Shown here in pieces: positions 1,573 through 18,969 of a DNA stretch of 64,000 bases. The translations under genes and the position numbers were made by a program. Position 1 is the stretch's first letter. Each line of letters opens with the position of its first letter. The DNA comes from Niastella populi. Its GTDB lineage: Bacteria; Bacteroidota; Bacteroidia; Chitinophagales; Chitinophagaceae. The stretch is taken from the NCBI RefSeq assembly GCF_002078015.1, contig NZ_LWBP01000210.1:310001-374000 (forward strand). The letters run 5' to 3'. The notes under the pieces were generated by a model that was not told where the DNA came from, did not search any database, and saw only the letters and a program-made list of their open reading frames with translations.

Positions 1573-2997
1573 ATGACAACAGCGGCGTTAATAAAACCAT
1601 ATAAATTGCAGTTAAGGAAAATTTTTCCTGTTATTATTGTGCTGATCAGCTTATCGCTGGTGGGGACCATATATGTACAGTACAGCTGGTTACGAACCAT
1701 GCTGTTGAACAAGAATGAAGAATTGAAAGGTAAGATCGAACGTGGTATGCACATCGTAGGCACGGCCCTGATGGAGCAGAAAGGTTCGCTGCCTTCTCTT
1801 AAACGTTACCGTACGCGACCCGATTTCAGCTGGCCGGCAGAACAGTTCAAGATGGAACTGATGAACCCGCCTACCATTGCCCAAAAGTTTACCGAACAGG
1901 AGGTGGCGGAAAAGCTGAACAAAGCTTTTGAAGAACAGGGTTTGCACAATGTGAAATTTGAATTTGCCATTACTTCCAACCTGAATTTGCTTTCTTACGA
2001 AATTAAATCAAGAGGTTTTTTAACACAGGTTGAAGATACCGTGGGCGATCGTAACCTTGGGTTTTACTACCTGTTGCAACCGCCCAGCGGCAGCGACCTC
2101 GAGAACATTGTACCCGAAGAAATAATGACGGTGATTGTGCCCAATGTGAAAAGAATAGTGCTTAGCGATATGCGCTGGATGATCATTGGCGCCATTTTCT
2201 TCACCCTTATGATCATTACCGCTTTTTATATTACTGTAAATGCATTGTTGCGTCAGAAGAAGCTGAGTGAAATAAAGAACGACTTCATCAATAATATGAC
2301 GCATGAGTTCAAAACGCCGCTTGCTACCATTTCGCTGGCAGTTGATGCCCTGCGTAACGATAAAGTGGCGCAGGACCGCGAGAAAATGAATTACTTCAGC
2401 AGTATTATCAAGGAAGAGAACAAACGGATGAACAAGCATGTGGAAACCATTCTGCAGGCTGCTGTTATGGACCGTCAGGAAATTACGCTCAACCGGGTGC
2501 CGTTGCATGTACATAATCTCATTCATGAGATCATGGATAATTATCAACTGCAGTTGCAGGAGAAAGGCGCACGTGCCGAATTAAGCCTGGATGCCAGGTT
2601 CGATTTCATTGAGGCCGACCAGGTGCACTTCCGCAACCTGATCTCGAACCTGGTTGATAATGCCGTTAAATATTCGAAAGAGAACCTGTTGATAAAAATT
2701 GCCACGTATAATACCAGTCATGCAATAGGAATACGTATTGAAGATAATGGTATTGGTATGAGCAAGGAAACGGTTCGGCGCATCTTCGAAAAATTCTATC
2801 GCGCCCATACGGGTAATATTCACAATGTAAAAGGGTTTGGTCTTGGCTTGAGTTATGTAAAAACCGTAGTTGATGCCCATGACGGCAAGATCAAGGTTGA
2901 TAGCATGCTTGGCAAAGGATCGGCCTTCACCCTCGAAATTCCATTGTTTAAAGAAAAGGTTAGTGCCGAAACAGCAGGCAGCCATCGCCATAACTAA
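1573..2997 (+). CDS. Membrane-bound sensor histidine kinase (orphan)
   Basis: A 474-residue two-component sensor kinase of the inner membrane. Residues 17-40 and 203-225 are membrane segments flanking a periplasmic sensor region of about 160 residues. The HisKA domain carries His244 in NMTHEFKTP. The ATPase domain shows the N box (NLISNLVDNAVKYS, 356-369), G1 (DNGIGMS, 391-397), F box (FEKFYRAHTG) and G2 (GFGLGLSYV, 421-429). There is no visible HAMP, PAS or receiver domain. No response regulator lies next to it: the downstream neighbour queA is convergent and its 3' end overlaps this gene by 38 nt. The partner and the signal are unknown. The start was chosen because it precedes the first membrane helix with a short basic stretch. 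Confidence 0.93.
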   Translation: MTTAALIKPYKLQLRKIFPVIIVLISLSLVGTIYVQYSWLRTMLLNKNEELKGKIERGMHIVGTALMEQKGSLPSLKRYRTRPDFSWPAEQFKMELMNPPTIAQKFTEQEVAEKLNKAFEEQGLHNVKFEFAITSNLNLLSYEIKSRGFLTQVEDTVGDRNLGFYYLLQPPSGSDLENIVPEEIMTVIVPNVKRIVLSDMRWMIIGAIFFTLMIITAFYITVNALLRQKKLSEIKNDFINNMTHEFKTPLATISLAVDALRNDKVAQDREKMNYFSSIIKEENKRMNKHVETILQAAVMDRQEITLNRVPLHVHNLIHEIMDNYQLQLQEKGARAELSLDARFDFIEADQVHFRNLISNLVDNAVKYSKENLLIKIATYNTSHAIGIRIEDNGIGMSKETVRRIFEKFYRAHTGNIHNVKGFGLGLSYVKTVVDAHDGKIKVDSMLGKGSAFTLEIPLFKEKVSAETAGSHRHN

Positions 2998-4189
2998 GAA
3001 AGCGAAAATCATTCTCTAACGCATACGTATATAGTTTTCGCCAGTCGGCCCCAATGAATGCGGCTACCAGTAAGAGCAGCGTTGATTGCGGCTGGTGAAA
3101 ATTTGTCACCAGCGCATTGGGTATGCGAAACGTATAACCCGGCGCAATCAGCAGCGATGTTTTGGTTATAATGCGATCGAGCTGATGTTGCTGTAAGTAA
3201 TTCAGTAAATTTTCGAGCGCGGTTTTAGCCGGAACCGGATCGCCGTTCAATTCATACGGGTCCCACTGGTGTACTACCAGTTCTTCCGGCGGGCAGTCGG
3301 GTTGCCGCGTTGCTTTTACTCCCAGCCAGTACAGGCTTTCCACCGTTCTTAATGAAGTGGTGCCTACCACAGTGATCTGTTTATCGAGGTAATTCAATAG
3401 GCAGTTGATGGTGTCGATAGAAACATCGATGAACTCCGCATGCATAGGATGCCCACTCATGGTTTCGCTTTTCACCGGTTTGAAAGTGCCGGCGCCAACA
3501 TGCAGGGTTACATATTCGAGGTGGACCTGTTTTTGATCGAATGCTTTAAAAACCGCATCGGTAAAATGCAAACCGGCCGTGGGAGCGGCTACCGATCCTT
3601 CAGCATTGGCATAAATGGTTTGATAGCGTTCGCTATCGGTTTGTTCAACTGTGCGTTTTATATAAGGAGGAAGCGGAATATTACCCGCTACCTGCAAAAC
3701 TTCGGCAAAGGTGAGCGAAGCAGGTGTCCATGATAGTTCAATGGAAAAGCTGTCTTTCTCCTTGCCAAGGTAGCGGGCCTGCAAAACAATTTCATCGTCA
3801 TTCCAGGCCATTCGTTTTTCAAGAATTTGTCCGGGTTTCCATTTGGAGGCGCCGCCGATAAGGCATATCCAGGTAACCTGGCCTTTTTGGGTCATGGCTG
3901 TGGTCATGTCGGCGTATTGCGGGGGCGGTTCCAGGCAAAAGATCTCCACTACCGCGCCGGTTGGTTTTTGAAAAAGCAGGCGGGCGGCAACTACCCTGGT
4001 ATTATTGAAGAGAAGGAGGGAACCGGCGGCAACATATTGAGGAATATTCCGGTAAATGTCTTCCTGAATGGCCCCTTCTTTATAAATAAGAAGCCGGGAA
4101 CTGTCTCTTTCGGGAAGTGGATACCGGGCAATTTTTTGCTCCGGCAGCTCATACGTAAAATCGTGAACTGATAAGTCTTTTGGATGCAT
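2960..4189 (-). CDS. queA: S-adenosylmethionine:tRNA ribosyltransferase-isomerase QueA
   Basis: QueA transfers and isomerises the ribosyl moiety of AdoMet onto preQ1 in tRNA, giving epoxyqueuosine, in the queuosine pathway. The 409-residue protein shows the family's signature blocks in order: LLFNNTRVVAARL, PTAGLHFT, LHVGAGTFKPV, GTTSLRTVES and TNFHQPQSTLLLLVAAF. The frame stays open upstream to 4372, but the start at 4189 (MHPKDLSVHDFTYELP) is chosen because family similarity begins there. It is longer than E. coli QueA (about 356 residues), as usual in Bacteroidota. Its stop lies inside the 3' end of the convergent histidine kinase gene. No other queuosine gene is in the window. Confidence 0.95.
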   Translation of the reverse strand: MHPKDLSVHDFTYELPEQKIARYPLPERDSSRLLIYKEGAIQEDIYRNIPQYVAAGSLLLFNNTRVVAARLLFQKPTGAVVEIFCLEPPPQYADMTTAMTQKGQVTWICLIGGASKWKPGQILEKRMAWNDDEIVLQARYLGKEKDSFSIELSWTPASLTFAEVLQVAGNIPLPPYIKRTVEQTDSERYQTIYANAEGSVAAPTAGLHFTDAVFKAFDQKQVHLEYVTLHVGAGTFKPVKSETMSGHPMHAEFIDVSIDTINCLLNYLDKQITVVGTTSLRTVESLYWLGVKATRQPDCPPEELVVHQWDPYELNGDPVPAKTALENLLNYLQQHQLDRIITKTSLLIAPGYTFRIPNALVTNFHQPQSTLLLLVAAFIGADWRKLYTYALENDFRFLSYGDGCLLFRH

Positions 4190-4618: not shown

Positions 4619-5055
4619 TATATCCATCGATGGCAGTTGCAATTGGTTGCAATGCTTGTCGGCCGGGCAATTGGTGTGATGAGTGGTAAGGCTAATTGCA
4701 CAAACTTACTTCAACAAGATCATGCTGCAGGGCATAGTGGCGAATGGTGGCTTCCTTCGGTAACCATGCCGCCGCTTTTCTTAAAATCCAAAACCTGGAG
4801 GCCCTGGTACCCGGCCACGGGTAACCGGTAATCTGGTTTTCCCCTTTTTTACCACCGGCCTGCCGGTTCAACCGATCTTCTACCACATTTTCCCACCAAT
4901 TACAGCTTTCCTGGAGGCAATAACCACCCCCGAATCCCATTTTCAGGCAGCCCGGATAAATTTTCCCGCCACAAAATGACCCGCTTTTAGTTGAGGCCAT
5001 GCCAGTTTTTTGCCGCTGCCACGAAAAAACATCCACCGGACCGTTCAATTTTGCT

Positions 5056-5107
5056 TAATCCACAGCTTATGCACAGTTATGCACATCAATTCACATGATT
5101 ATGCACA
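5056..5107. promoter_or_regulatory. Cluster of DnaA-box-like nonamers
   Basis: Three exact TTATGCACA nonamers (5067-5075, 5077-5085, 5099-5107) and TAATCCACA (5056-5064) lie within 52 bp, all in the same orientation. TTATGCACA fits the general DnaA-box consensus TTATNCACA and the fourth site has one mismatch. AT-rich DNA follows. DnaA binding, as an origin or as control of the division cluster, is inference. Confidence 0.6.
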
Positions 5108-5207
5108 TGTTTGAAGGGAAATAAAGTAGAAAAATTCACGGAAAGCCTTGTTGATCACTTATATACAAATAATAATCCTTGTGGAAAAAATATTCTTTCC
5201 AAATTCG

Positions 5208-5242
5208 GGTAAGAAAGTGGGAAAAAGTGTTATTTTGTGTAA
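5208..5242 (+). promoter_or_regulatory. Putative MraZ operator and mraZ promoter
   Basis: TGGGA (5218-5222), TGTTA (5228-5232) and TGTAA (5238-5242) are separated by exactly 5 nt each, preceded by GGTAA at 5208-5212, so the unit repeats every 10 bp. Known MraZ operators consist of TGGGN repeats with 5-nt spacers. A near-consensus -7 element (TTATTTTG, 5230-5237) overlaps it. This fits autoregulation of the dcw operon by MraZ. Confidence 0.5.
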
Positions 5243-5273
5243 GTGTTAGACAAATAGGTGCAACTCATTGTAA

Positions 5274-5738
5274 ATGATACAATTTCTCGGAGAATACGAA
5301 GCAACCCTCGACGCAAAAGGGCGTTTTCTCCTACCGGCAGGCATTAAAAAGCAAATGCCGGAGGATGCTGGAGACCAATTTGTCATAGCTCGTGGTTTTG
5401 AAAAATGTTTGACTTTATATCCCAAAAAAAATTGGGACCCAATACTGGCCGAACTGAGTAAAGTTAGCGAATACAAGGCCGAAAATAGGGAGTTCTTACG
5501 ATATTTTACAATGGGCGCTTCACTGTGCGATCTGGATTCAGCGGGAAGGATGTTGGTGCCTCCAAATTTAAAAGCCCATGCAGGGCTCGAAAAAGATATA
5601 GTACTGGTTTCTGTTATCAATAAAATTGAGATCTGGGATAAAGTTAAGTACCAACAGTTCTTTGAGTCTTTTACACCGGAAAAGTACAGCGATCTGGCAG
5701 AGCGGGTAATGGGTGGTCAAAATACTTCACAATTGTAA
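5274..5738 (+). CDS. mraZ: Transcriptional regulator MraZ
   Basis: MraZ is a DNA-binding ring-forming regulator that in enterobacteria represses its own dcw operon. The 154-residue protein has the two repeated MraZ domains with the DxxxR signature twice: DAKGRFLLP near residue 13 and DSAGRMLVP near residue 88. The start at 5274 (MIQFLGEYEATLDAKGR) places the first domain at the N-terminus as in the family. It is the first gene of the cluster; its stop is 4 nt before the rsmH start. Candidate operator repeats lie 32-66 nt upstream of the start. Confidence 0.95.
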   Translation: MIQFLGEYEATLDAKGRFLLPAGIKKQMPEDAGDQFVIARGFEKCLTLYPKKNWDPILAELSKVSEYKAENREFLRYFTMGASLCDLDSAGRMLVPPNLKAHAGLEKDIVLVSVINKIEIWDKVKYQQFFESFTPEKYSDLAERVMGGQNTSQL

Positions 5739-5742
5739 TGTT

Positions 5743-6666
5743 ATGAGTGAGCCTGTTTACCATGTACCGGTTTTATTGCAGGAGGTGATCGACGGTTTGA
5801 GCATTCGCCCTGATGGGGTGTATGTTGATTGTACCTTTGGCGGCGGTGGCCATTCCCTGGAAATTCTTAAACTACTTAACGCTGAAGGGCGTATGGTTGT
5901 TTTCGACCAGGATGCAGATGCCCGGAAAAATGTGCCCGATGATGATCGTATCATTTTTGTTCCGCACAATTTCAGGCACCTGCAGCGGTTTTGCCGGCTG
6001 CATAAAATAACGCAGGTAAATGGCATTTTAGCCGACCTCGGCGTTAGCAGCCACCAGTTCGATACCGCCGATCGCGGGTTTAGCACCCGCTTCGAAGGCG
6101 ACCTCGATATGCGAATGGACCAGCGGCAGGAACTGACGGCCTTTGAAGTGGTTAACACTTATGACGAACAGCAATTGCACAAATTGTTTGAACAGTATGG
6201 TGAGGTTACCAACTCAAAAACACTGGCCCGCACCATTGTTCAGGTTCGAAAAACGGTATCGCTTAAAACCATCTCTAACTTCAAGCAGGCGCTGCACGCG
6301 GTAGTAAAAGGAAATCCTAATAAATACTTTGCCCAGGTATTTCAGGCTTTGCGAATTGAGGTGAATGATGAATTAGGCGCATTGAAAGAAATGCTGCAAC
6401 AGGTTCCCCCCCTGTTAAAACCCGCCGGCCGTGTAGCCATCATAACTTTTCATTCTTTGGAAGACCGGATCGTGAAGAATTTCTTTCGCAAAGGAAATTT
6501 TGAAGAAGAAGAAGTGGATGTTGACCCGTTCGGAACAAAAACCTCCACACCACCACTCAAAGCAATAACAAAAAAGCCGATCGTTCCAACCGAAGCCGAG
6601 ATGAAGCGAAACCCGCGCGCAAGAAGCGCCCGGTTAAGAGTAGCAGAGAAGGTAGAAGGAAATTAG
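5743..6666 (+). CDS. rsmH: 16S rRNA (cytosine(1402)-N(4))-methyltransferase RsmH
   Basis: RsmH (MraW) methylates N4 of C1402 in the ribosomal P-site using AdoMet. The 307-residue protein shows the AdoMet site VDCTFGGGGHSLEIL near the N-terminus, LADLGVSSHQFD, and the C-terminal ITFHSLEDRIVKNFF block, with RNPRARSARLR near the end. The frame is open from 5713, inside mraZ, but the ATG at 5743 (MSEPVYHVPVLLQEV) matches the family start. It follows mraZ by 4 nt. After it comes a 280-nt gap of A/G-rich word repeats before ftsL. Confidence 0.96.
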   Translation: MSEPVYHVPVLLQEVIDGLSIRPDGVYVDCTFGGGGHSLEILKLLNAEGRMVVFDQDADARKNVPDDDRIIFVPHNFRHLQRFCRLHKITQVNGILADLGVSSHQFDTADRGFSTRFEGDLDMRMDQRQELTAFEVVNTYDEQQLHKLFEQYGEVTNSKTLARTIVQVRKTVSLKTISNFKQALHAVVKGNPNKYFAQVFQALRIEVNDELGALKEMLQQVPPLLKPAGRVAIITFHSLEDRIVKNFFRKGNFEEEEVDVDPFGTKTSTPPLKAITKKPIVPTEAEMKRNPRARSARLRVAEKVEGN

Positions 6667-6740
6667 AAATTAAAAATGAGAAACAGAGAAATGAAGAAGG
6701 AAGTACAGAAGCAGAAGGCAGGAAATAAAAATGAAAGAGA
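6664..6740. repeat. A/G-rich word repeat
   Basis: Words such as GAAATTAGAAATTAAAAATG and GAGAAACAGAGAAATGA follow the rsmH stop. A near copy (ATGAGGAACAGAGAAATGAG) lies after the ftsZ terminator at about 22655-22700, and the complementary words occur at 39918-39956 and 60715-60745. Confidence 0.6.
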
Positions 6741-6896
6741 GATAGGGAAATTGAACAATGAAAGTGAAGCTGTATGCGTCGTGCTGGTGTTTCATTAGCA
6801 AATTATCACATTCACCGTCGAGTTCTTGTTCTCATAATAAAGGGTAATTAAAAATTGCAATTTCTATTTGATTTAAGCCTCGTGAATTAAGCATTC

Positions 6897-6933
6897 ATAG
6901 CGGTTAGACGGATAGCACCTGTCTGACCGCTAT
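6897..6933 (+). promoter_or_regulatory. Hairpin immediately upstream of ftsL
   Basis: ATAGCGGTTAGAC (6897-6909) pairs with GTCTGACCGCTAT (6921-6933), 13 bp with one G-U pair and an 11-nt loop. It ends 13 nt before the ftsL ATG and is followed by TTGATTAAG, a weak U-tract. It may attenuate transcription, block or protect mRNA, or mark a processing site inside the dcw operon. Confidence 0.6.
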
Positions 6934-6946
6934 TTGATTAAGTAAA

Positions 6947-7276
6947 ATGAGTGAAGAAAAAGAAATATCACGCAGGAGACGGCAACGCAAAAGGTTGTTT
7001 GGGTACAGGTGGATCGTAAAGAACATTCCTTTCTTCCTGTTCCTGTCGGTACTGGCAATCGTGTACATCTACAATGGTCACTACGCCGACAACACCGTGC
7101 GCAACATTAACAAAGTAAATCGCGAGCTGAAGGAACTGCAATTCGAATACAAAACATTGAAAAGCGAAGTGATGTTCCGCAGCAAACAGAGCGAACTGGC
7201 CAAATCGGTAGAAACGCTTGGATTGAAAGAACTGGTTGTTCCACCGGCGATACTGGTAGACACATTAAAAAATTAG
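6947..7276 (+). CDS. ftsL: FtsL-like cell division protein
   Basis: A 109-residue bitopic inner-membrane protein in the ftsL position of the cluster. It has a very basic cytoplasmic N-terminus (RRRRQRKR), one membrane segment at about residues 29-46 (IPFFLFLSVLAIVYIYN) and a periplasmic coiled-coil stretch (NKVNRELKELQFEYKTLKSEV). Small size, topology and location between rsmH and ftsI identify it as the Bacteroidota FtsL-like protein, which in other bacteria bridges FtsQ/FtsB with FtsW/FtsI. Sequence identity in this family is always low, so the call rests mainly on context. Confidence 0.85.
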   Translation: MSEEKEISRRRRQRKRLFGYRWIVKNIPFFLFLSVLAIVYIYNGHYADNTVRNINKVNRELKELQFEYKTLKSEVMFRSKQSELAKSVETLGLKELVVPPAILVDTLKN

Positions 7277-7340
7277 AAGGTTTAAAATATAAAAGTGAGG
7301 ATGCTGGCAGGTGAAGGGCGTTTGGATGTAGGAAACTCGT

Positions 7341-7371
7341 CATTGACCATTCACCGTTGACCATTCACCAT
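7341..7371. repeat. CCATTCACCATTGA word repeat running into the ftsI start
   Basis: CATTGACCATTCACC and GTTGACCATTCACCATGG run directly into the ATG of ftsI at 7370. The repeat therefore forms the translation initiation region; there is no purine-rich Shine-Dalgarno sequence. Confidence 0.7.
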
Positions 7372-9499
7372 GGAGGTTAAAAAGGACATATTATGGCGGG
7401 TTTACCTGTGCTACATAGGCATAGTTGTATTCAGTATTGCCATTCTGGGGCGGGCGATTTACATTCAACAGGTGCAGGGCAAATTCTGGCGCGGGCAGGC
7501 AAAAGACCAGCAGCAGAAGTTTGTAGAGATCGATGCGCAACGCGGTACCATTTATAGTGAAGATGGCCGAATGCTCAGTACCTCAACACCGTATTTTGAC
7601 ATTTATGTTGATTTTGCAGCAGAGGGATTACGTCAGAAGAACGGCGCGCGGTTCCACAATAACCTTGATTCACTGTCACTTGGCCTGGCCACCATGTTCC
7701 CTGAGAAAAGTAAGGCATCGTGGCGCCGTGAATTAAAGAATGGTTATCAAAGAAAGAACCGCTATTATTTGTTGAAAAAGAACCTGACATTTCAGCAATA
7801 CAAACAGTTACGCAGTTTGCCATTGGTGCGGTTGGGAAAAGATAAAAGCGGTTTCATTGCGGAAGTAAAAGATAAGCGTTTAAACCCTTTCGGGTTGCTG
7901 GCAAACAGAACCATCGGGTTATCACGCGAATACATAGATAGCGGCGGAAATATGCGCAGTATGAATGTGGGGTTGGAAAAAACGTATGACGATCAGTTGC
8001 GGGGCGAAAGTGGAAAACGTTTGATGCGAAAAATTGCAGCCGGTGTATTTGTACCTGTCGACGGATCGGAGATAGAACCGCAGAACGGAAAAGACATCAT
8101 CACCACGCTGGATGTGAACATTCAGGATATCGCTGAAAATGCATTGCTGAATGTTTTAACCACAAATGAGTGTGAATATGGTACTTGCATCGTAATGGAA
8201 GTGGCAACAGGGAAAATTAAAGCCATCGCTAACCTGAGCCGAAGGGAAGACGGCAGTTACTGGGAGAATTACAATTACGCCGTACAGGCATCTGAGCCCG
8301 GTTCTACTTTTAAATTGGCTACGATGTTGGCGTTGCTCGAAGATCAATTAATAACTTTGCAGCAACACATAAACCTCGAAGGCGGAAGCTGGAACGTAAA
8401 TGGAAGAACCGTATATGACACCGAAGATCATGGCACGGATGCAACAGTAAAAGAGGCGTTTGAACACAGCTCGAATGTTGGAATGGCAAAGTTGACCACC
8501 ACCTACTATGGTAAGAATCCGACTCGTTTTATAAATCACCTTAAGAAACTGCGATTCGATCAGCTAACGGGCATCGATCTGTTGGGCGAAGGAAAACCGC
8601 TGGTGAAAACACCTAAATCAAGGTCATGGAGCGCAACATCGCTGCCATGGATGAGTTTCGGGTACGAAGTAATGGTAAGCCCTTTGCAAACATTGATGTT
8701 ATATAATGCGGTAGCGAATGATGGAAAAATGATGAAGCCTTACCTGGTGAACGCAGTAACCGAAAACGGCGTGACGATACAGGAGAACCAGCCGCAGATA
8801 GTGGAAGAAACGATCTGCAGTACAAAAACATTAAAACAGTTACGCCAGTGTCTTGAAGGTGTTTGTTCAGATGGAACGGCAAAGGAATTGTTCAGGGGAG
8901 CGCCCTACCGCACAGCAGGTAAAACCGGCACAGCTTTGATGGCCAACGGCAATAAAGGATACAGTGAGAAAATTTATCAGTCGTCGTTTGCAGGTTATTT
9001 TCCGGCCGAACATCCGCAATACAGCTGCATAGTTGTGATCCGTAACAAACCGTTTGCACCTGTTTACTACGGAGCAAAAATTGCAGGACCGGTATTTAAA
9101 GAGATCGCCGATAAATTATATGCGTTGAATGCCGATCGAAGCAGGGGATTGAAGCAGCTGGCATTGAGAAAAGACAGCAGCTTCCATTTATACGCCGGTT
9201 CAACGGAAGATATAAAAGAGGTGGTTGAGAAGTTACGAATGAAATACCGCGATTCGGCAAAAGCAGATGAATGGGGTCATTTGTATACAGTAAATAACCA
9301 ACAGGTGTTGAACAACAGGAAAGTGTCGAATAAGATCATGCCCGATATACGGGGAATGGGTTTAAAAGATGCACTGTTCCTGTTGGAAAACAGAAAAATG
9401 AAAGTAGTGTTCCGGGGCAGGGGGAAAGTGGTTAGTCAGAGCATAGAACCCGGGGCATATGTAAGTAATCATCAAACGGTGAGTTTAGAACTGAATTAA
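7370..9499 (+). CDS. ftsI: Septal peptidoglycan transpeptidase (penicillin-binding protein) with PASTA domain
   Basis: FtsI (PBP3/PbpB) crosslinks septal peptidoglycan in the periplasm. The 709-residue protein has a short cytoplasmic end, a membrane anchor at about residues 11-30, a PBP dimerisation region, then the transpeptidase motifs: nucleophile Ser312 in STFK, SSN at 367-369 and KTG at 518-520. A PASTA-like domain (MPDIRGMGLKDALFLLE to the end, about 655-709) closes the protein. Family and position next to ftsL, murE and ftsW agree. The start lies in an intergenic word repeat (CACCATGG). Confidence 0.96.
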   Translation: MEVKKDILWRVYLCYIGIVVFSIAILGRAIYIQQVQGKFWRGQAKDQQQKFVEIDAQRGTIYSEDGRMLSTSTPYFDIYVDFAAEGLRQKNGARFHNNLDSLSLGLATMFPEKSKASWRRELKNGYQRKNRYYLLKKNLTFQQYKQLRSLPLVRLGKDKSGFIAEVKDKRLNPFGLLANRTIGLSREYIDSGGNMRSMNVGLEKTYDDQLRGESGKRLMRKIAAGVFVPVDGSEIEPQNGKDIITTLDVNIQDIAENALLNVLTTNECEYGTCIVMEVATGKIKAIANLSRREDGSYWENYNYAVQASEPGSTFKLATMLALLEDQLITLQQHINLEGGSWNVNGRTVYDTEDHGTDATVKEAFEHSSNVGMAKLTTTYYGKNPTRFINHLKKLRFDQLTGIDLLGEGKPLVKTPKSRSWSATSLPWMSFGYEVMVSPLQTLMLYNAVANDGKMMKPYLVNAVTENGVTIQENQPQIVEETICSTKTLKQLRQCLEGVCSDGTAKELFRGAPYRTAGKTGTALMANGNKGYSEKIYQSSFAGYFPAEHPQYSCIVVIRNKPFAPVYYGAKIAGPVFKEIADKLYALNADRSRGLKQLALRKDSSFHLYAGSTEDIKEVVEKLRMKYRDSAKADEWGHLYTVNNQQVLNNRKVSNKIMPDIRGMGLKDALFLLENRKMKVVFRGRGKVVSQSIEPGAYVSNHQTVSLELN

Positions 9500-9511
9500 T
9501 AAATATATAGC

Positions 9512-10975
9512 GTGACACTGCAGGATATACTATATAAGGTAAGTATTCGCTCGGTACATGGTAACACCAGCATACCGGTGCATGACCTGCAGTTGGATTC
9601 ACGGAAGGTAAGCGCAGGATCGGTTTTTATTGCCGTAAAAGGTTCTGCGGTAGATGGCCACCGGTTTATTGATCAGGTGTTACAACAGGGCGCCGTTGCG
9701 GTCATCTGTGAAACAATGCCCGCCGAATTGAAAGAGGGAGTGGTGTATGTTCAGGTGGAGAGCAGCGCGGCTGCCGCGGGTTACATGGCACATAACTTTT
9801 ACGAACAGCCATCTGAAAAAGTAAAGCTGATAGGAGTAACCGGCACCAACGGTAAAACAACCATCGCTACCTTATTATTCAAGCTCTTTACCAACCTGGG
9901 ATATAAATGTGGCCTGCTGAGCACGGTGCAGAATCATATTGGAAATGAAGTAGTGCCGGCAACACATACCACACCCGACGCCATCAGCCTGAATGCCATG
10001 CTGCAACAAATGGTGAACAGCGGCTGTACCCATGTTTTCATGGAAACCAGTTCGCATGCCATACACCAGCATCGTATAACCGGTTTGAAGTATGCCGGCG
10101 GGTTATTCAGCAACATTACCCATGATCACCTCGATTATCATAAAACATTCGATGAATATATCAGGGTAAAGAAATCGTTCTTCGATCTGCTGCCATCAGA
10201 AGCATTTGCCATATCAAATGCCGATGACAAACGCGGTCAGGTGATGTTGCAAAATACACACGCGCGCAAATACCTGTACAGCCTGCGAACGATGGCGGAG
10301 TTCAAAGGCAAGATCCTGGAGAACAGGTTAACCGGTTTGGTAATGACCATCAACGACCAGGAAGTGCATTTCCGCCTTATTGGTGAATTCAATGCCTACA
10401 ACCTGTTGGCCGTATATGGTGCTGCCATTTGTTTGGGTGAAGATAAACTGGAAGTGTTGCGGGTGTTGAGCGAGATCACCGGGGCGGAAGGACGATTTGA
10501 TTATATCATTTCACCCAACCAGAAAATAATAGGGATTGTAGATTATGCCCACACGCCGGATGCATTGCTGAACGTGTTGGCCACTATAAAAAAATTGCGC
10601 GAAGGACATGAGCAGGTTATTACGGTAGTTGGTTGTGGCGGCGATCGCGATAAAACCAAACGTCCGGTAATGGCGGAAGTTACCTGCGAGCACAGTGACA
10701 AAGTGGTATTCACTTCCGATAATCCGCGCAGTGAAGATCCATTACAGATCCTGGCCGACATGGAAACCGGTTTAAATACCGCGGCCAAAAGAAAATATGT
10801 ATCAGTGCCCGATCGCAAAGAAGCCATAAAACTGGCAGTGAGCATGGCAAAGCCGGGAGATATTGTGTTGATTGCCGGTAAGGGCCATGAGAAGTATCAG
10901 GAAATAAAAGGAGTAAAACATCCTTTTGACGATAAGCAGGTGATGCGTGAAATGTTTGAGCTGTATGAAAAATGA
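9512..10975 (+). CDS. murE: UDP-MurNAc-L-Ala-D-Glu--2,6-diaminopimelate ligase MurE
   Basis: MurE adds the third stem residue to the cytoplasmic peptidoglycan precursor, using ATP. The 487-residue protein has the Mur ligase P-loop GVTGTNGKTT (108-117), the ETSSHAIHQHR block, FSNITHDHLDYH, and the C-terminal DYAHTPDAL and FTSDNPRSEDP. The DNPR motif is the known signature for meso-diaminopimelate rather than lysine. Translation seems to begin at GTG 9512, 12 nt after ftsI, since no ATG precedes the conserved N-terminal domain. murF does not follow it, as is usual in this phylum. Confidence 0.95.
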   Translation: MTLQDILYKVSIRSVHGNTSIPVHDLQLDSRKVSAGSVFIAVKGSAVDGHRFIDQVLQQGAVAVICETMPAELKEGVVYVQVESSAAAAGYMAHNFYEQPSEKVKLIGVTGTNGKTTIATLLFKLFTNLGYKCGLLSTVQNHIGNEVVPATHTTPDAISLNAMLQQMVNSGCTHVFMETSSHAIHQHRITGLKYAGGLFSNITHDHLDYHKTFDEYIRVKKSFFDLLPSEAFAISNADDKRGQVMLQNTHARKYLYSLRTMAEFKGKILENRLTGLVMTINDQEVHFRLIGEFNAYNLLAVYGAAICLGEDKLEVLRVLSEITGAEGRFDYIISPNQKIIGIVDYAHTPDALLNVLATIKKLREGHEQVITVVGCGGDRDKTKRPVMAEVTCEHSDKVVFTSDNPRSEDPLQILADMETGLNTAAKRKYVSVPDRKEAIKLAVSMAKPGDIVLIAGKGHEKYQEIKGVKHPFDDKQVMREMFELYEK

Positions 10976-11009
10976 GGAACAAGAGCTCGTACACCTAAAA
11001 TAAACCAAC

Positions 11010-12290
11010 ATGTTGTACCATTTAATCGATTGGTTAAAGGAATTGGGGGTTAAGATGCCTGGTAATGCACTGTTTCAGTTCATTACATCCAGGGTATTGC
11101 TGGCAGTGATCCTGTCGCTGGTAATATCGGCCGTGTTCGGGAAAAAGTTCATCAATTACCTGCGTAAAAAACAGGTAGGCGAAACCGTACGCGATCTGGG
11201 CCTGGCCGGTGAACAGCAAAAGAAGGGAACGCCAACCATGGGCGGTTTTATAATCATCCTGGCAATTCTGGTTCCAACGCTCTTGCTGGCCGATTTAACA
11301 AAGGCTTACATCCGCCTCATGTTGTTTGCGACCGTATGGCTGGGGATGATAGGTTTTATAGATGATTACCTGAAACTGCGCGCCAAAAAGCTGGCCCAGC
11401 AACAAGGCATCGCTTATAAAAAAGGTGATAAGGATGGTTTGGCCGGGTGGTTCAAAATATTAGGACAGGTTGTGTTGGGTTTTGTAGTGGCTGCCACATT
11501 GTTATTCAATAACAATACAAAGGCATGGCGGGAATTTACCGGAACAACGCCACCGGCCGAATCCGCCAACTACAGGGAAATAACTTTTGACGGTAAGGTT
11601 AAAAAGTTTGTGGTAGCCGATGAGCCTATTACAACCATCCCGTTTGTAAAATCGCACGAGTTCAACTATTCAAAACTGTTGCCTGAAGGTTTACGCTCTT
11701 TGACCTGGATCCTGTATGTGATCATCGTTATTATTATTGTAACGGCAGTTTCCAATGGCGCCAACATAACCGATGGTATCGATGGGTTGGCAACAGGAAC
11801 AAGCGCCATTATAGGAGCATGTTTGGGCATCTTTGCGTACGCGAGCGGTAACCTGCGGTTTGCCGAATACCTGAACATTATGTATATACCCAACCTCGGT
11901 GAGCTGAGTATATTCATCGGCGCCATGATCGGGGCCTGCGTAGGGTTCCTGTGGTATAATTCATATCCGGCGCAGGTATTTATGGGTGATACGGGAAGTT
12001 TGACGCTGGGCGGGATCATTGCTGCACTGGCGATCATTGTAAGAAAAGAATTACTGATCCCTATTTTCTGCGGTGTGTTCCTGGTTGAGAACCTGAGTGT
12101 GATCTTGCAGGTGTCGTATTTCAAATACACGAAGCGGAAATATGGTGAAGGGAAAAGAATATTCCTTATGAGCCCGCTGCACCACCACTACCAAAAGCTG
12201 GGTTACCATGAATCGAAGATCGTAACGAGGTTCTGGATAGTGACCATCCTGTGTATAGTGTTTGCGATAGTAACACTGAAAATAAGATAA
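11010..12290 (+). CDS. mraY: Phospho-N-acetylmuramoyl-pentapeptide-transferase MraY
   Basis: MraY makes lipid I by transferring phospho-MurNAc-pentapeptide to undecaprenyl phosphate in the inner membrane. The 426-residue polytopic protein has the family motifs GTPTMGG, the DDYLKLR aspartate pair, [20 protein letters not shown] and the [11 protein letters not shown] histidine motif. About 60 residues between membrane helices (from [10 protein letters not shown] to SHEFNYS) form an extra loop compared with E. coli MraY (360 residues); such insertions are common in Bacteroidota. It lies 34 nt after murE. Confidence 0.97.
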
Positions 12291-12514
12291 TAAAAAGCCT
12301 CACCGGTTAGCCGGAAGCTTGAATAGCAATAAACTGATTACTGAAAAACCAACACTCTGAATTTCCACTTAAGGAAAACCAATCATAGTAGTAGGTAGAG
12401 TGTGGTAGAGCAGTACAAATTCAAACTAAGGAAGAACCCCCTTTAATCCGGATAACACCCGATTAATAATATAAGTACCCGGTATAACCGGCACGTAATG
12501 GAGTTAGTATTTAC

Positions 12515-13855
12515 ATGAGTAAGCGATTGGTAATACTTGGAGCCGGCGAAAGCGGCGTTGGCACTGCCATCCTTGGCAGGCAGAAGGGGTATGATGTGTT
12601 TGTATCGGACGGTGGAGCGGTAAAAGAGAAATATAAAGAGGAGCTGAATAAATACGGGATCGAATGGGAAGCAGATCAGCATACCGAAGAGAAGATCTTG
12701 AACGCGGATGAAGTGATGAAAAGTCCGGGCATTCCTGAGAAGAGCGAACTGGTGAAAAAGATCAGGAAAAAAGGAATACCGGTTATCAGTGAAATAGAAT
12801 TTGCATACCGCTACAAAGGCAACAGTAAGATCATTGGCATTACGGGCAGTAACGGAAAAACGACAACGACGTCGTTGATGTATCATATTTGTAAAACCGC
12901 CGGACTGGATTGTGCGCTTGTAGGCAATATCGGTTATTCATTCGCCAAACAGATAGCTGAAGACCCGAAGGAATTGTATGTGGCGGAGATCAGCAGTTTT
13001 CAATTGGATGATATTGAAACGTTCAGGCCCGATGTAGCGATACTTACCAATATTTCGGAAGACCATTTGGACAGATATGATTACCGGTTCGAAAACTATA
13101 TACACAGTAAGTTCAGGATAGCTGAGAACCAAACAGCGCAGGACTATTTTATTTACTGTGCCGATGATCCGGTAACCATGCAGTACTTAGAGAAATATAC
13201 TATCAAATCTAACCCATTACCATTCAGTATGAGTAAAGAATTACCCCAGGGCGGTTTTATCAGGAACGGACAGATGACTGTTACAGTTGATGATGAGAAG
13301 ATGCAGATGAATGTGAGTGATTTTACTTTAAAAGGAAAACACAACCAGAATAACACGATGGCAGCAAGTTTAGGTGGTGTAACGATGGGGATTCGCAAGG
13401 AGAAGATCCGCGTAGCCGTTCAAACATTCGAATCGCTGGCCCACAGGATGGAACCCGTTAGCACTGTACGTGGTGTTGAGTTCATCAACGACAGCAAGGC
13501 CACGAATGTGAACAGTACCTGGTATGCCCTCGAGAGCATGGAGCGGCCTACTATTCTCATACTGGGTGGGGTAGATAAAGGAAATGATTATTCTATCCTT
13601 ACCGACCTCGTTCGCGAAAAAGTGAAAGCGATCGTGTGTTTAGGTACGGATAACCTTAAAATACATGAAGCATTTAAAAATGATGTACAGTTGATGGTGA
13701 ACACCGCTTCGGCAGAAGAAGCCGTAAAAGCTGCATTTCATTTTGCCACACCGGGCGATACGGTTTTGTTAAGCCCGGCCTGCGCCAGCTTCGATCTGTT
13801 CAAGAATTATGAAGATCGCGGCGACCAGTTCAAGCAGGCAGTGCGCGAATTGTAA
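12515..13855 (+). CDS. murD: UDP-N-acetylmuramoylalanine--D-glutamate ligase MurD
   Basis: MurD adds D-glutamate to UDP-MurNAc-L-Ala. The 446-residue protein begins with a Rossmann-like GAGESGVGTAILG, carries the P-loop GITGSNGKTTTTS, the LAHRMEPV and NDSKATN motifs and the C-terminal LLSPACASFDLFKNYEDRG signature. The start at 12515 fits the family (MSKRLVILGAGESG). A 224-nt gap separates it from mraY; I see no clear promoter or terminator in that gap, only a short CCGGTTAGCCGG palindrome near 12303. Confidence 0.96.
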   Translation: MSKRLVILGAGESGVGTAILGRQKGYDVFVSDGGAVKEKYKEELNKYGIEWEADQHTEEKILNADEVMKSPGIPEKSELVKKIRKKGIPVISEIEFAYRYKGNSKIIGITGSNGKTTTTSLMYHICKTAGLDCALVGNIGYSFAKQIAEDPKELYVAEISSFQLDDIETFRPDVAILTNISEDHLDRYDYRFENYIHSKFRIAENQTAQDYFIYCADDPVTMQYLEKYTIKSNPLPFSMSKELPQGGFIRNGQMTVTVDDEKMQMNVSDFTLKGKHNQNNTMAASLGGVTMGIRKEKIRVAVQTFESLAHRMEPVSTVRGVEFINDSKATNVNSTWYALESMERPTILILGGVDKGNDYSILTDLVREKVKAIVCLGTDNLKIHEAFKNDVQLMVNTASAEEAVKAAFHFATPGDTVLLSPACASFDLFKNYEDRGDQFKQAVREL

Positions 13856-13916
13856 CCGGTTTGCAGTTTTCAACTGCCAACTGGTAGCCAGGCTAAAAGA
13901 GTGTTAATGAAAAGGA

Positions 13917-15368
13917 ATGACGAATGTTAACGATATAGGTTTGTTAAACAAAACCCGGGGTGATAAGGTCATCTGGGCTATTGTGGTCGTATTGGCCCTG
14001 GTGTCAATGCTGGCGGTGTATAGTTCTACCGGATTACTTGCATATAAGCATAACCGCGGAAACACCGAGGTGTACCTGTTCAAACAGGTAGTTACTACCA
14101 TCATGGGCCTGGCGATCATCTATTTTTCACACCGGGTGAATTATACCTTGTACTCAAGGGTAGCGCGGATCTTATTCATGATCTCGATACCCTTGTTGGT
14201 ATATACCTTGTTCTTTGGCGTTGAATTAAACCAGGGTAGCCGCTGGATCCGGTTACCTATCATTAATCTCACGTTTCAAACTTCCGATCTCGCCAAGCTG
14301 GCGCTCTTCATGTTCCTGAGCCGCCTGCTGAGCAAAAAACAGGAAGTGATCAAGGATTTCAAAAAGGGATATATCCCTGTGATCATACCCATAGCTGTCG
14401 TTTGTATTTTGATAGCCCCGGCCAACCTGTCAACCGCATTGCTGATAGCTGCTACCAGCATGTTGTTATTATTTATAGGCAGGGCAAGCACCAAACACCT
14501 GTTACTGACGATTGGGATAGCCGCCATTCCGGTAGCGATACTGGTAATGATAGCTGTAGCTTTTTATGATAAGAAAGAAGAGAAATGCGCAGAGCTGCCT
14601 TTCTTTTTGCAAACCGCACGTATCCCAACCTGGATAAGCCGCGTGCAAAACTTTATTTACGACAGCAAACAGGTTGATAAAGATGAGAACTATCAGATCA
14701 ATCAGGCAAAGATCGCCATTGCAAAAGGCGGTTTGCTGGGGTTAGGTCCGGGTAATAGTGAAACGCGGAACTTTTTACCGCACCCGTATTCAGATTTCAT
14801 TTTTGCCATCATCATTGAAGAGTATGGACTGGCGGGAGGCTGTTTTCTCTTATTTGTATACCTGCTGTTCCTGTTGAGGAGTATCAGGATCTTTAAAAAA
14901 TGCCCTTATGCTTTTGGGGCATTTCTGGCGTTGGGGTTAAGCTTCACGCTGGTGATACAGGCCCTCATCAACATGGCGGTAACGGTTAACCTGTTTCCGG
15001 TAACGGGCGTTACATTGCCGCTGGTAAGTATGGGTGGCAGCTCGTTCATGTTCACCTGCCTGGCCATTGGCATCATCTTAAGTGTGGCCCGTAATGTAGA
15101 ACAGCTCGAAGCGCCGGCCACACCAAAAGCAACCGGTGAAGCAAAAGAGAAAAAGAAAGCTGCTGCTGATGAGGAAGAAGCCGGGATGGAGGAAGAAGAA
15201 ACACCGGTGAAAGCCAAAAAGGAAAAAGCGGTGAAGAAAGTAAAAGCCACCGAGGCAGAAAAAGCAGAAATGGCCGGGAAAGCGGAGAAAGCAGACAAAG
15301 CGGAAAGAAGTAAGGCATTGAAACCGTTGACCGATATAGCGATGAATGATCTGGAGCAAGGCAAGTAA
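13917..15368 (+). CDS. ftsW: SEDS peptidoglycan glycosyltransferase FtsW with a charged C-terminal tail
   Basis: FtsW polymerises septal glycan strands from lipid II together with FtsI. The first 392 residues are a typical polytopic SEDS protein: QGSRWIRLP, the SDLAKLALFMFLSR block, AIAKGGLLGLGPGNS, LPHPYSDFIFAII and the closing GVTLPLVSMGGSS. Residues from about 397 to 483 form a cytoplasmic tail made almost only of Lys, Ala and Glu (TGEAKEKKKAAADEEEAG and similar). Usual FtsW proteins end soon after the last helix, so this tail is an addition. It lies 61 nt after murD. Confidence 0.95.
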   Translation: MTNVNDIGLLNKTRGDKVIWAIVVVLALVSMLAVYSSTGLLAYKHNRGNTEVYLFKQVVTTIMGLAIIYFSHRVNYTLYSRVARILFMISIPLLVYTLFFGVELNQGSRWIRLPIINLTFQTSDLAKLALFMFLSRLLSKKQEVIKDFKKGYIPVIIPIAVVCILIAPANLSTALLIAATSMLLLFIGRASTKHLLLTIGIAAIPVAILVMIAVAFYDKKEEKCAELPFFLQTARIPTWISRVQNFIYDSKQVDKDENYQINQAKIAIAKGGLLGLGPGNSETRNFLPHPYSDFIFAIIIEEYGLAGGCFLLFVYLLFLLRSIRIFKKCPYAFGAFLALGLSFTLVIQALINMAVTVNLFPVTGVTLPLVSMGGSSFMFTCLAIGIILSVARNVEQLEAPATPKATGEAKEKKKAAADEEEAGMEEEETPVKAKKEKAVKKVKATEAEKAEMAGKAEKADKAERSKALKPLTDIAMNDLEQGK

Positions 15369-15388
15369 GCTTTCAAAAAAAATGCACA

Positions 15389-16537
15389 ATGAGCGAGTCA
15401 CCAAATATATCAACAGGCTCACATTACCCCCCCACCGGGGTGGCCAGGGGTGGCCGGATAATCATAGCAGGAGGAGGAACGGGCGGACATATTTTTCCGG
15501 CGGTGGCCATTGCACATGCATTGCGTAAACTGGAACCATCTGTTGAGATCCTGTTTGTAGGGGCCAAAGGAAAAATGGAAATGGAAAAAGTGCCGCAGGC
15601 AGGATATAATATTATAGGGTTAGACATCGCCGGTTTTAACAGAAGTTCTTTGATAAAGAATATCGGTTTGCCATTTAAACTCATAAAAAGTTTCTGGCAG
15701 GTTCGAAGCATTCTTAAAACATTTCAACCCGATGCGGTGATAGGTGTGGGTGGTTATTCAACCTATCCGGTATTGCGCTCGGCGCAGGCAAAGGGAATAC
15801 CCACATTTATACACGAGGCCAATTCATTTGCCGGTAAAGCAAACATGATGCTGGGTAGAAATGCCACCAGGATCTTTGTGGCAACCGATGGCATGGAAAA
15901 GTTTTTTCCGGCCGGCAAGATCATGATCACCGGCAACCCGGTACGGCAGAACATTGTAAACAATACCATCAGCCGTTCAGAAGGCATTCAGTTCTTTGGG
16001 TTGGATGCATCTAAGAAAACGGTATTTGTTACCGGCGGTAGTTTGGGCGCGAAAGGAATAAACGAAGCGATAGATGCCAACATAAATGCATTCATACAGA
16101 ATGACGTGCAGCTGATATGGCAAACCGGTAAACTGTATGCTGAAAAAGCCAGCGCAAGGGCGGCGGAGAACCGGAACATCTGGGCCAACAGTTTCATTAC
16201 ACAAATGGAATATGCTTATGCGGCCGCAGACATTGTGATCTCGAGAGCAGGCGCCATGTCGGTAGCTGAATTATGTGTAGCGAAAAAACCTGTAGTGTTT
16301 GTGCCCTTTCCGTTTGCCGCAGAAGATCATCAGACTGCCAATGCACAAAACCTGGTGAACAAACAGGCCGGCTTATTGATAAAAGACAGCGAGGCAAGGG
16401 AAAAACTGGTTCCAACCGTAATTGCCCTAGCCCGTGATGAGGACCAGCAAAAGATGCTGCGGGAGAATATTGGGGAATTAGCGGTTACCGATGCAGATGA
16501 AGTGGTTGCGAGGGAAGTGTTGAGATTGATTAGTTAA
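15389..16537 (+). CDS. murG: UDP-GlcNAc--lipid I N-acetylglucosamine transferase MurG
   Basis: MurG converts lipid I to lipid II on the cytoplasmic membrane face. The 382-residue protein has the GT28 motifs IIIAGGGTGGHIFPA (24-38), GVGGYSTYP, TGGSLGAKGIN and the C-terminal SRAGAMSVAELC with FPFAAEDHQTANA. About 20 residues (MSESPNISTGSHYPPTGVAR) precede the first strand, more than usual. They are encoded by a GC-rich repeat-like stretch (15413-15455), so the true start is uncertain; an in-frame GTG at 15440 is an alternative. It follows ftsW by 20 nt. Confidence 0.95.
   Translation: MSESPNISTGSHYPPTGVARGGRIIIAGGGTGGHIFPAVAIAHALRKLEPSVEILFVGAKGKMEMEKVPQAGYNIIGLDIAGFNRSSLIKNIGLPFKLIKSFWQVRSILKTFQPDAVIGVGGYSTYPVLRSAQAKGIPTFIHEANSFAGKANMMLGRNATRIFVATDGMEKFFPAGKIMITGNPVRQNIVNNTISRSEGIQFFGLDASKKTVFVTGGSLGAKGINEAIDANINAFIQNDVQLIWQTGKLYAEKASARAAENRNIWANSFITQMEYAYAAADIVISRAGAMSVAELCVAKKPVVFVPFPFAAEDHQTANAQNLVNKQAGLLIKDSEAREKLVPTVIALARDEDQQKMLRENIGELAVTDADEVVAREVLRLIS
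15413..15455 (+). repeat. GC-rich palindromic repeat at the 5' end of murG
   Basis: CCCCCCACCGGGG is followed by TGGCCAGGGGTGGCCGG. The core resembles the copies in murC (17586-17624), in the FadN-type gene (28026-28079) and between ftsA and ftsZ (20375-20423), all of the form CTCCNCC...GGGGAGGCCGGGAGG. Confidence 0.5.
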
Positions 16538-16625
16538 CGAGTTGACTGGTTAACGAGTTAACAAGTTAAGGCTGGTTGAAAAGTTGATATTGTTGCCGTT
16601 TGCCGTTTCACGATTCACGAATAAA
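16533..16625. repeat. GTTAACGAGTTAACAAG and CACGATTCACGA word repeats
   Basis: The gap between murG and murC consists of GTTGACTGGTTAACGAG words followed by GCCGTTTGCCGTTTCACGATTCACGA. Related words appear at 22738-22805, 36216-36260, 54567-54580 (first type) and 62484-62520 (second type). Confidence 0.6.
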
Positions 16626-16629
16626 GAAA

Positions 16630-18036
16630 ATGATCGATATAAAAGACATACAAAGAGTTTATTTCATAGGGATCGGTGGTATAGGAATGAGTGCACTGGC
16701 CCGCTACTTCAAATTTCATGGAAAGGAAGTGAGCGGTTACGACAAAACCGAAACCCCGCTTACAAAACAGTTGGTAAACGAAGGTATTCCGGTACACTAT
16801 GAAGACGATCTGGCATTGGCGCCGAAAGATGCACAATTGATAGTGTATACGCCGGCAGTGCCGAAGGGACATACCGGGCTGGCCTTTTACCAGCAAAACA
16901 ACTACCCGTTGTTGAAACGAAGTGAAGTGCTGGGGGCTATAACAAGAAGTTCTTTTAATATCTGTGTGGCCGGAACGCATGGCAAAACAACCATCACTAC
17001 CATGGTAGCGCACATTTTGCGCCACAGCGAATATGGTTGTAATGCTTTCCTCGGTGGCATTGCTGTGAACTATAACAGTAATTACTGGAGCCATGAGAAC
17101 GATACCTGTGTGGTAGAAGCCGACGAATACGATCGCAGCTTTTTACGGTTAACCCCTGATGTGGCAGTGATCAGTGCAATGGATCCCGATCATCTGGACA
17201 TTTACGGAACACCCGGCGCTATGGAAGACGCGTTCATTGAGTTTGCCGGTAAAATAAAACCAGGCGGAACGTTGATCAGCAAGTTTGGTTTGCCAAGAGG
17301 GAAGGAACTGAAAGCACCGAACCATTTTACCTACCATTTGCAAAATACCCAGGCTGATATTTATGCCTGTAATATTCAGATGCAGCATGGTACATATGTA
17401 TTCGATGTGCAGGTGAAAGAGTGGAAGCTGGCAAACGTGGTGTTGAACATGGGCGGCTTACACAATATAGAAAACGTAATAGCTGCTATAGCTATTGCCC
17501 ACCGCCTTGGAATTGATGATGAAAAAATTAAAGCGGCGGTAGAAGCATTCAGGGGAGTGAGACGCCGGTTCGAATATGTTATAAAAACTCCTCCCACAGC
17601 AGGGGAGGCCGGGAAGGGGCTTACGTTTGTTGATGATTACGCCCATCACCCCGAAGAGTTGCGCGCTTTGATAACCGGGGCCAGAGGATTGTTCGGAAGC
17701 ATGAAGTGTACCGTGGTATTTCAGCCACACCTTTTCACCCGGACAAGAGACCTGGCAGATGAGTTCGCCGAAGTGCTCGATATGGCCGATGAGGTAGTGC
17801 TGTTGCCCATATATCCGGCAAGGGAATTACCGATAGAAGGTGTCACCAGCAGCATCATACTCGACAAAATGAAGAACCCGAACAAACAGGTATTGACTAA
17901 AGAGCAGTTGGTGCAATGGATTAAGGAGGTGAAAGACCCATCAACAAAAAGCGGCAATGGCTGGTTATTGATCACAGCCGGCGCCGGTGATATCGATACG
18001 CTGGTTTTACCGGTTAAACAGATCATTGAGAAATAG
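16630..18036 (+). CDS. murC: UDP-N-acetylmuramate--L-alanine ligase MurC
   Basis: MurC adds L-alanine to UDP-MurNAc, the first committed peptide step. The 468-residue protein shows IGIGGIGMSALA (13-24), the P-loop VAGTHGKTTITT, VVEADEYDRSF and the VDDYAHHPEEL motif. A stretch of about 13 residues just before VDDYAHHP (TPPTAGEAGKGL, 320-331) is encoded by a GC-rich repeat and looks like an in-frame insertion into a surface loop. The frame is open from 16600 but ATG 16630 (MIDIKDIQRVYFIGIGG) matches the family. ddl, often next in other phyla, is absent. Confidence 0.95.
   Translation: MIDIKDIQRVYFIGIGGIGMSALARYFKFHGKEVSGYDKTETPLTKQLVNEGIPVHYEDDLALAPKDAQLIVYTPAVPKGHTGLAFYQQNNYPLLKRSEVLGAITRSSFNICVAGTHGKTTITTMVAHILRHSEYGCNAFLGGIAVNYNSNYWSHENDTCVVEADEYDRSFLRLTPDVAVISAMDPDHLDIYGTPGAMEDAFIEFAGKIKPGGTLISKFGLPRGKELKAPNHFTYHLQNTQADIYACNIQMQHGTYVFDVQVKEWKLANVVLNMGGLHNIENVIAAIAIAHRLGIDDEKIKAAVEAFRGVRRRFEYVIKTPPTAGEAGKGLTFVDDYAHHPEELRALITGARGLFGSMKCTVVFQPHLFTRTRDLADEFAEVLDMADEVVLLPIYPARELPIEGVTSSIILDKMKNPNKQVLTKEQLVQWIKEVKDPSTKSGNGWLLITAGAGDIDTLVLPVKQIIEK
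17586..17624 (+). repeat. GC-rich palindromic repeat inside murC
   Basis: CTCCTCCCACAGCAGGGGAG and GGCCGGGAAGGGG form an imperfect palindrome in frame with murC. GGGGAGGCCGGGAAGG closely matches the GGAGGGGGCCGGGAAGG core on the minus strand at about 28027-28043. Confidence 0.6.
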
Positions 18037-18121
18037 AATAAGTGCAGAATAAGTGCAGGCACCTGCAGGTGCTACGTAAAAGTAGTTGTACCCATAGGTG
18101 CCGGCAGGAACATAAGATCAC

Positions 18122-18889: not shown

Positions 18890-18969
18890 GAACATTGTAA
18901 GAGCAGAAAAAATGATTGAATAATATAGAGCAACGCCCCCTCAATACAACAACTAAAAACAGGATAGTT

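Follow-up and report, generated by a model that had tools for sequence, protein, structure and literature searches.

The 64,000-nucleotide stretch of Niastella populi DNA analysed here (the window) carries the head of a dcw cluster, which begins with mraZ and continues with rsmH (mraW), an ftsL-like gene and a gene for a penicillin-binding transpeptidase (Table 1). As a preliminary description of this DNA had noted, the roughly 1.1 kb between the inferred start of the divergent queA gene and mraZ contain no gene. Within this region, an array of five DnaA-type boxes, a spacer of 72 bp, an inverted TTTTCCACA box, the element AAAGTGGGAAAAAGTGTTATTTTGTG and mraZ follow one another in the 5' to 3' direction. 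The AT-rich DNA before mraZ, described earlier as well, recurs in relatives, where the mean G+C content of 70 Chitinophagaceae regions is 0.25 to 0.32 over positions -100 to 0. GC skew across the dcw operon (window positions 5000 to 20000) is 0.11 to 0.135 per 5 kb, well above most neighbouring bins.

Table 1. Features at the mraZ promoter and in the adjoining genes (positions in the window)
Feature	Position	Strand	Basis or remark
queA, divergent, upstream of the array	2960..4189	-	NF001140, 330.2 bits, cut-off 324; start inferred
DnaA-box array, five boxes	5056..5107	+	sequence reading; kept upstream of mraZ across the family
Array box 1, TAATCCACA	5056-5064	+	
Array boxes 2 and 3, TTATGCACA	5067-5075, 5077-5085	+	
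Array box 4, CAATTCACA	5087-5095	+	absent from the preliminary description; in register
Array box 5, TTATGCACA	5099-5107	+	
Spacer, 72 bp	5108..5179	.	length or helical phase kept, sequence not
Single DnaA-like opposite-strand box, TTTTCCACA (TGTGGAAAA on the + strand)	5180-5188	-	
MraZ operator and probable core promoter (the latter presumed by us), AAAGTGGGAAAAAGTGTTATTTTGTG	5214..5239	+	GTG repeats 10 bp apart
mraZ, first dcw gene	5274..5738	+	TIGR00242, 134.6 bits, cut-off 98.35
rsmH (mraW)	5743..6666	+	TIGR00006, 321.5 bits, cut-off 154.3
ftsL-like protein	6947..7276	+	TIGR02209, E 0.00062, below cut-off
Penicillin-binding transpeptidase, FtsI by position after the ftsL-like gene	7370..9499	+	several penicillin-binding models, all below curated cut-offs

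Three identical nonamers and one variant in a single orientation had been described at this place, and all four are present on the forward strand. The cluster is nevertheless larger than a count of four, with a fifth box (box 4 in Table 1) and the inverted box nearer to mraZ. Box starts within the array are separated by 11, 10, 10 and 12 bp, leaving gaps of 2, 1, 1 and 3 bp between the boxes. Single matches to the pattern TTATNCACA are ordinary, since the whole genome (8.61 Mb) contains 296 of them against 204 for a reversed-pattern control, about 1.45-fold, and the window as a whole shows no enrichment (4 matches against 2.72 expected). A solitary TTATCCACA lies on the reverse strand at window positions 21831-21839. 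Same-strand pairs of TTATNCACA with a gap of 1 to 20 bp occur at this array only (2 overlapping matches in the whole genome; 1 for the reversed control), and it is also the sole triple phased array found in the genome. Equal density of the nonamers elsewhere, named earlier as an argument against the cluster, was thus not observed: single boxes are common and close same-strand pairs are unique to the array. A phased two-box pattern (TGTGNAWW, gap 2-4) gave 11 matches in the whole genome, 4 of them at the array, 1 beside nadA and 6 elsewhere, compared with 4 for the reversed control. As the 6 leftover matches are not clearly above this control, we rejected the idea of a wider DnaA-array regulon in this genome.

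Conservation upstream of mraZ in other Chitinophagaceae, which had been proposed as a check, was assessed by counting relaxed boxes (WWTNCACA) between -260 and -120 of mraZ, with expectations from shuffled sequences and the stretch from -600 to -460 as a control. The 30 nearest loci, that is, the best MraZ matches including the window, hold 80 relaxed boxes where 4.6 were expected; each has at least one, and 24 have at least two (0.3 expected). Very similar numbers were obtained for 40 further family regions, taken from the matches listed, one per genus outside the 30: 89 boxes (6.4 expected), at least one in 38 regions and at least two in 31 (0.5 expected). Together, 55 of 70 family regions retain two or more boxes, 15 have fewer than two, and 2 have none; the control stretch contained 1 relaxed box per set. 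The inverted TGTGGAWA box was detected between -130 and -60 in 61 of 70 family regions (29 of the 30 nearest and 32 of the 40 further ones). A set of 80 named loci, partly the same as the 30 and spanning Niastella, Longitalea, Chitinophaga, Ferruginibacter, Puia, unnamed Chitinophagaceae and others, showed at least one box in 78, at least two in 57 and the inverted box in 74.

Outside the family, we sampled 60 regions from the matches listed (4 and 20 from the order, 12 from the class and 24 from the phylum). None of them contained two or more relaxed boxes (order 0/24, class 0/12, phylum 0/24); exactly one was present in 6 regions, and the inverted box likewise in 6, of which 4 belong to the order. 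Judged from these promoter sequences, the array is family-restricted within the sampled regions. The MraZ repeats at 5214-5239 are near-invariant across the 70 family promoters, and the pattern GTGG[GT]N5GTG precedes mraZ in 68 of 70 family regions. Beyond the family it was present in 4/4 and 17/20 regions of the order, 11/12 of the class and 22/24 of the phylum, 54 of 60 in total. The best explanation is that the MraZ operator is older than the array at the mraZ promoter. GTGG[GT]-type repeats with 10-bp spacing were sought in the array and are not there; it carries TTATNCACA on the coding strand. An assignment of the array to queA was rejected: among 110 loci whose fetched flanks were searched for this gene, the two locus sets overlapping in part, 56 gave a queA match; 55 of these have at least one box, as do 53 of the other 54.

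Spacing is a further conserved trait. In the family regions, the separation of TNCAC cores has maxima at 10-11, 21, 32, 42-43 and 53 bp. Where an exact TGTGGAWA box is preceded by an array box (61 regions), the gap from the nearest array box to the inverted box measures 61-65, 69-73 or 82-84 bp in 48 cases, 72 bp being the commonest value (14 regions). Gaps of 52-60, 66-68, 74-81 or 85-91 bp were absent from all 61 regions; of the remainder, 11 fall between 20 and 51 bp, and two regions have gaps of 92 and 102 bp. The inverted box in turn lies 28-37 bp, mostly 34-35 bp, upstream of the MraZ repeats in the 61 of 70 regions having both parts. Over the 62 bp preceding the inverted box, median pairwise identity between genomes is 31%, and a palindrome visible by eye between array and inverted box in some genera is not conserved. 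Retention of spacer length and phase without retention of sequence points to a geometric constraint.

For the nearest-box gaps, the Rayleigh R was 0.71 at a period of 10.5 bp, 0.67-0.71 over periods of 10 to 11 bp and 0.62 at 12 bp, a broad optimum explained by the fact that most gaps are near 72 bp. Including all 192 boxes, R peaked at 0.72-0.73 near 10.5-10.75 bp, which is sharper partly because boxes within arrays are already 10-11 bp apart. Phase probabilities presume independence, which related genomes do not have, and are therefore not to be taken at face value. The view that the array is a chance or neutral repeat could appeal to the modest genome-wide excess of single boxes and the lack of enrichment in the window; it is already refuted by the family-wide conservation, orientation and phase, and we regard its probability as negligible.

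The exact three-box phased pattern was searched in 195 whole genomes of the family and matched in 40 of them, with 1 match for the reversed control. In 34 of these 40 genomes the array is located upstream of mraZ, invariably in one orientation, and in 33 of the 34 no triple array was found elsewhere; the other 6 have three-box arrays away from mraZ only. The exact pattern at mraZ was thus found in 34 of 195 genomes, a small share that counts against a strict array as a family-wide trait. The 155 genomes lacking an exact three-box match have two boxes or imperfect ones in the regions read. A strict pair pattern matched in 61 of 195 genomes, in at least 18 of them upstream of mraZ by coordinate comparison.

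Arrays located away from mraZ have various neighbours. At two loci (L338 and L342), three-box arrays lie among phage-like genes (repressor-like, recombination or AAA open reading frames, by reading), and from this context some three-box arrays may be phage-borne. In genome G156, a three-box array (L343:1501-1530) is located upstream of dnaB, encoding the replicative helicase (TIGR00665, over the cut-off), and also adjoins a pheT-like open reading frame identified by reading. No evident gene theme emerged at L350 and L352. One genome (G029) has its three-box array away from mraZ only, and another (G079) has 7 further off-mraZ matches, mostly low-complexity repeats.

Several same-strand DnaA boxes beside AT-rich DNA, on a contig that also carries dnaA at a distance of 64 kb, would be compatible with a chromosomal origin or a second origin, and the preliminary description had offered a replication origin as one of two readings. 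GC skew speaks against it. Along the 382,711-base contig bearing the array (C209), cumulative skew rises from end to end; single 5-kb bins dip, one of them to -0.23, and there is neither a lasting sign change nor a minimum near the array at about 315 kb. The cumulative skew minimum of another contig of the same genome (C134, 156,957 bases) is at 126,734, inside nadA as identified by profile, and five TTWTCCACR boxes at 125,310-125,790 constitute the densest such cluster of the two contigs. Sampling of a single-contig genome, G018, places the skew switch between 2.22 and 2.45 Mb. This interval holds a box cluster (2.376 Mb) flanked by nadA and a NuoA-like gene whose match is below cut-off; mraZ lies outside it, at 2.763 Mb, about 0.39 Mb from the cluster. 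In G022, a sign change of the skew falls inside the 20 kb surrounding nadA, and the 20 kb surrounding mraZ contain none. Coarse sampling of G116 does not separate the two places: followed round the circle, the skew is lowest in the sample at 0-20 kb, which nadA (4.05 Mb) precedes by about 55 kb, and nearly the same depth is reached at 3.69 Mb, close to mraZ (3.63 Mb), which the origin reading has in its favour. Across 12 single-contig genomes, the distance between mraZ and nadA varies from 0.39 to 2.98 Mb and is thus no constant position. We therefore consider it very improbable that the array is an origin.

The flank of nadA, by contrast with the array, is probably the chromosomal origin of the family, as suggested by the density of DnaA-like sites there (see below) and by skew in three genomes (that of the window, G018 and G022), on which the use of nadA as an origin marker rests. 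Candidate origin segments beside nadA are L058:1288-1760 in G018 and L113:900-1450 in the genome of the window, the latter corresponding to C134 positions of about 125,300-125,860. A skew minimum far from the array had been named beforehand as a finding that would tell against the description; the minimum does lie far away, which removes the origin half of the description and leaves its promoter half standing.

An off-origin array might also titrate or switch DnaA, as a sink or a datA- or DARS-like site, its place before mraZ being incidental. Its singularity as a triple phased array in this genome would suit such a role, and DnaA titration has been reported for E. coli (PMC12371093). However, the approximate distance of the array from mraZ and its orientation are constant although mraZ moves relative to nadA by megabases, and a sink would have no need for helical phase to a promoter-proximal box. 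This explanation appears improbable to us.

The question of which protein reads the array was approached through its motif. Array boxes selected by their TNCAC core and the presence of a neighbour at 10-12 bp correspond to TTATNCACA with a free fifth base, the commonest 9-mer being TTATCCACA (24 of 190). Pattern-selected boxes from the nadA side include TTTTCCACA and TTATCCACA at equal frequency, 15 each of 81. A weight matrix was built from 173 array boxes, with the genus of the window and G116 left out, and scanned in 600-bp windows. On C209, the best such window is the mraZ array itself, with 7 sites. On C134, the best one adjoins nadA and contains 11 sites against an average of about 0.6. 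Of 17 further loci scanned one by one, 14 have 7-12 sites per 600 bp upstream of nadA, the other 3 reaching 3-4. Two of the loci (L107 and L117) have a second matrix window with 6 sites, and windows with 6 sites also occurred in sampled DNA of G116 and G018. Since a motif derived from the array alone finds the nadA region, its reader is most likely DnaA.

The genome of the window encodes one full-length DnaA, besides two weak partial matches. Its C-terminal signature GGRDHTTVIH is shared with a DnaA chain that we take to be that of B. subtilis; this signature contacts the DnaA box. Short frames of 136-152 amino acids whose match to DnaA is confined to its C-terminal DNA-binding part were noticed in G114, G116 and G018, the last with a stop; in the genome of the window, no such C-terminal-only match is among the matches listed. 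Autoregulation of dnaA by similar boxes was rejected, as no relaxed box occurs in the 1.5 kb upstream of this gene, an absence that also counts against the DnaA reading of the array. Proximity to dnaA does not account for the array either: dnaA and mraZ are more than 250 kb apart in 8 of 12 single-contig genomes (up to 2.5 Mb) and less than 100 kb apart in 4 (about 20 kb in the closest case).

Alternatively, the array could be read by another protein, either MraZ or a family-specific regulator with a DnaA-box-like site. MraZ binds direct repeats with a GTG core, according to passages of PMC8475190 that describe MraZ boxes as AAAGTG[T/G] repeats; such repeats are 10 bp apart here, and the complement of the array box contains TGTG. 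On the other hand, 54 of the 60 non-family regions carry MraZ-type repeats, and two or more array boxes were found in none of the 60; hence the array is not simply an MraZ operator. The array box also differs from GTGGG/T in that its fifth base is free, with an A beside it on the complement (TGTGNA). In the window, the inverted box is 36 bp from the MraZ repeats, GTG to GTG, and thereby out of the 10-bp register, and recognition of the nadA region by the array-trained matrix also argues against such a reader. We judge this alternative unlikely, though somewhat less so than a DnaA sink.

DnaA-consensus boxes are thus found upstream of mraZ, are conserved in relatives and share their motif with the boxes beside nadA. 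The second reading of the preliminary description, a DnaA-controlled promoter of the dcw cluster, is supported by this conservation, the position, the phasing and the common motif, and only the origin it had offered as an alternative falls away. Probably, then, the array serves the mraZ (dcw) promoter as a DnaA-box array, on which a phased complex would control dcw transcription, and does not act as an origin. Sequence, conservation, orientation, spacing, phase, the motif common with the nadA cluster and the location off the skew switch were observed directly, and from them we infer DnaA binding, looping, direction of regulation and cell-cycle timing in the following way. DnaA, probably in its ATP-bound form, would fill the five same-strand boxes cooperatively, and the 10-12 bp box spacing would place the bound subunits on about one face of the helix. 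The resulting complex would keep its helical phase relative to the opposite-strand box, which lies about seven turns away and closely precedes the promoter; the two could then meet by bending of the spacer or through contact with RNA polymerase. Shifts in active DnaA during the cell cycle might in this manner determine when, or how strongly, division and cell wall genes are transcribed, in addition to MraZ autorepression at the downstream repeats. Activation is slightly favoured over repression as the putative outcome.

It is tempting to speculate further that a single recruitment event at the root of the Chitinophagaceae turned an origin-like DnaA filament module into a helically phased switch for the whole division operon, acting at a distance, whose DnaA polymer would meet the opposite box over seven turns and might open the AT-rich promoter in the manner of an origin. 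We put this forward as a tentative possibility; if true, expression of the division genes would be a direct read-out of the initiation cycle. How the start of replication is coupled to division in bacteria is a long-standing open question, and the array has the look of a conserved connection leading from replication to division. Located at the head of the dcw cluster, a DnaA-type array makes this coupling testable by a few point mutations in genera that are culturable and harmless. Our work also points to the nadA flank as the replication origin of the family.

Neither the array nor an origin beside nadA is reported among the matches listed for the open-access literature (titles and beginnings of abstracts, with subscription papers largely outside). 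Several known systems are related. Passages of PMC8475190 place GTG-core direct repeats of the MraZ operator immediately before mraZ, a layout that recurs in the window and in the majority of phylum members sampled, whereas the DnaA array forms a separate upstream layer confined to the family. According to passages of PMC11317965, the DnaA of E. coli favours, in vivo, paired boxes with a gap of 2-3 bp; these pairs, and the low-affinity pairs at oriC, are tandem boxes with about one helical turn between them, for which cooperative binding is expected, as in our array. Differing from these pairs, the array is off the origin, and steps of 10-11 bp dominate instead of 11-12 bp. Its typical gaps are 1-2 bp; gaps of 2 and 3 bp are reported as working in the E. 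coli passages of that paper, and 1 bp is outside them.

DnaA has been connected with division genes in other bacteria. The review PMC8203912 mentions DnaA boxes in E. coli ftsQA that have no role in ftsZ transcription, which counts against our reading. It also lists the Bacillus subtilis ftsL promoter as bound by DnaA, a parallel in that DnaA is at a promoter of the dcw cluster; this binding concerns one species, and no conserved array is part of the passages in question. The words ftsL, ylxA and yllB are absent from the main text of an in vitro genome-wide study (PMC4447404). A further counterpart is Caulobacter crescentus, where DnaA activates the ftsZ, gcrA and mipZ promoters according to passages of PMC8203912, and where DnaA boxes upstream of a division gene likewise link the initiator to division. 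The gene concerned is ftsZ in that bacterium; here it is mraZ, at the dcw head, with a phased five-box array and a promoter-proximal box in opposite orientation, and the array is kept across a family of another phylum. As far as these passages go, DnaA control of a division gene is already known from Caulobacter ftsZ, and what appears new, within the open-access literature searched, is the conserved array at mraZ.
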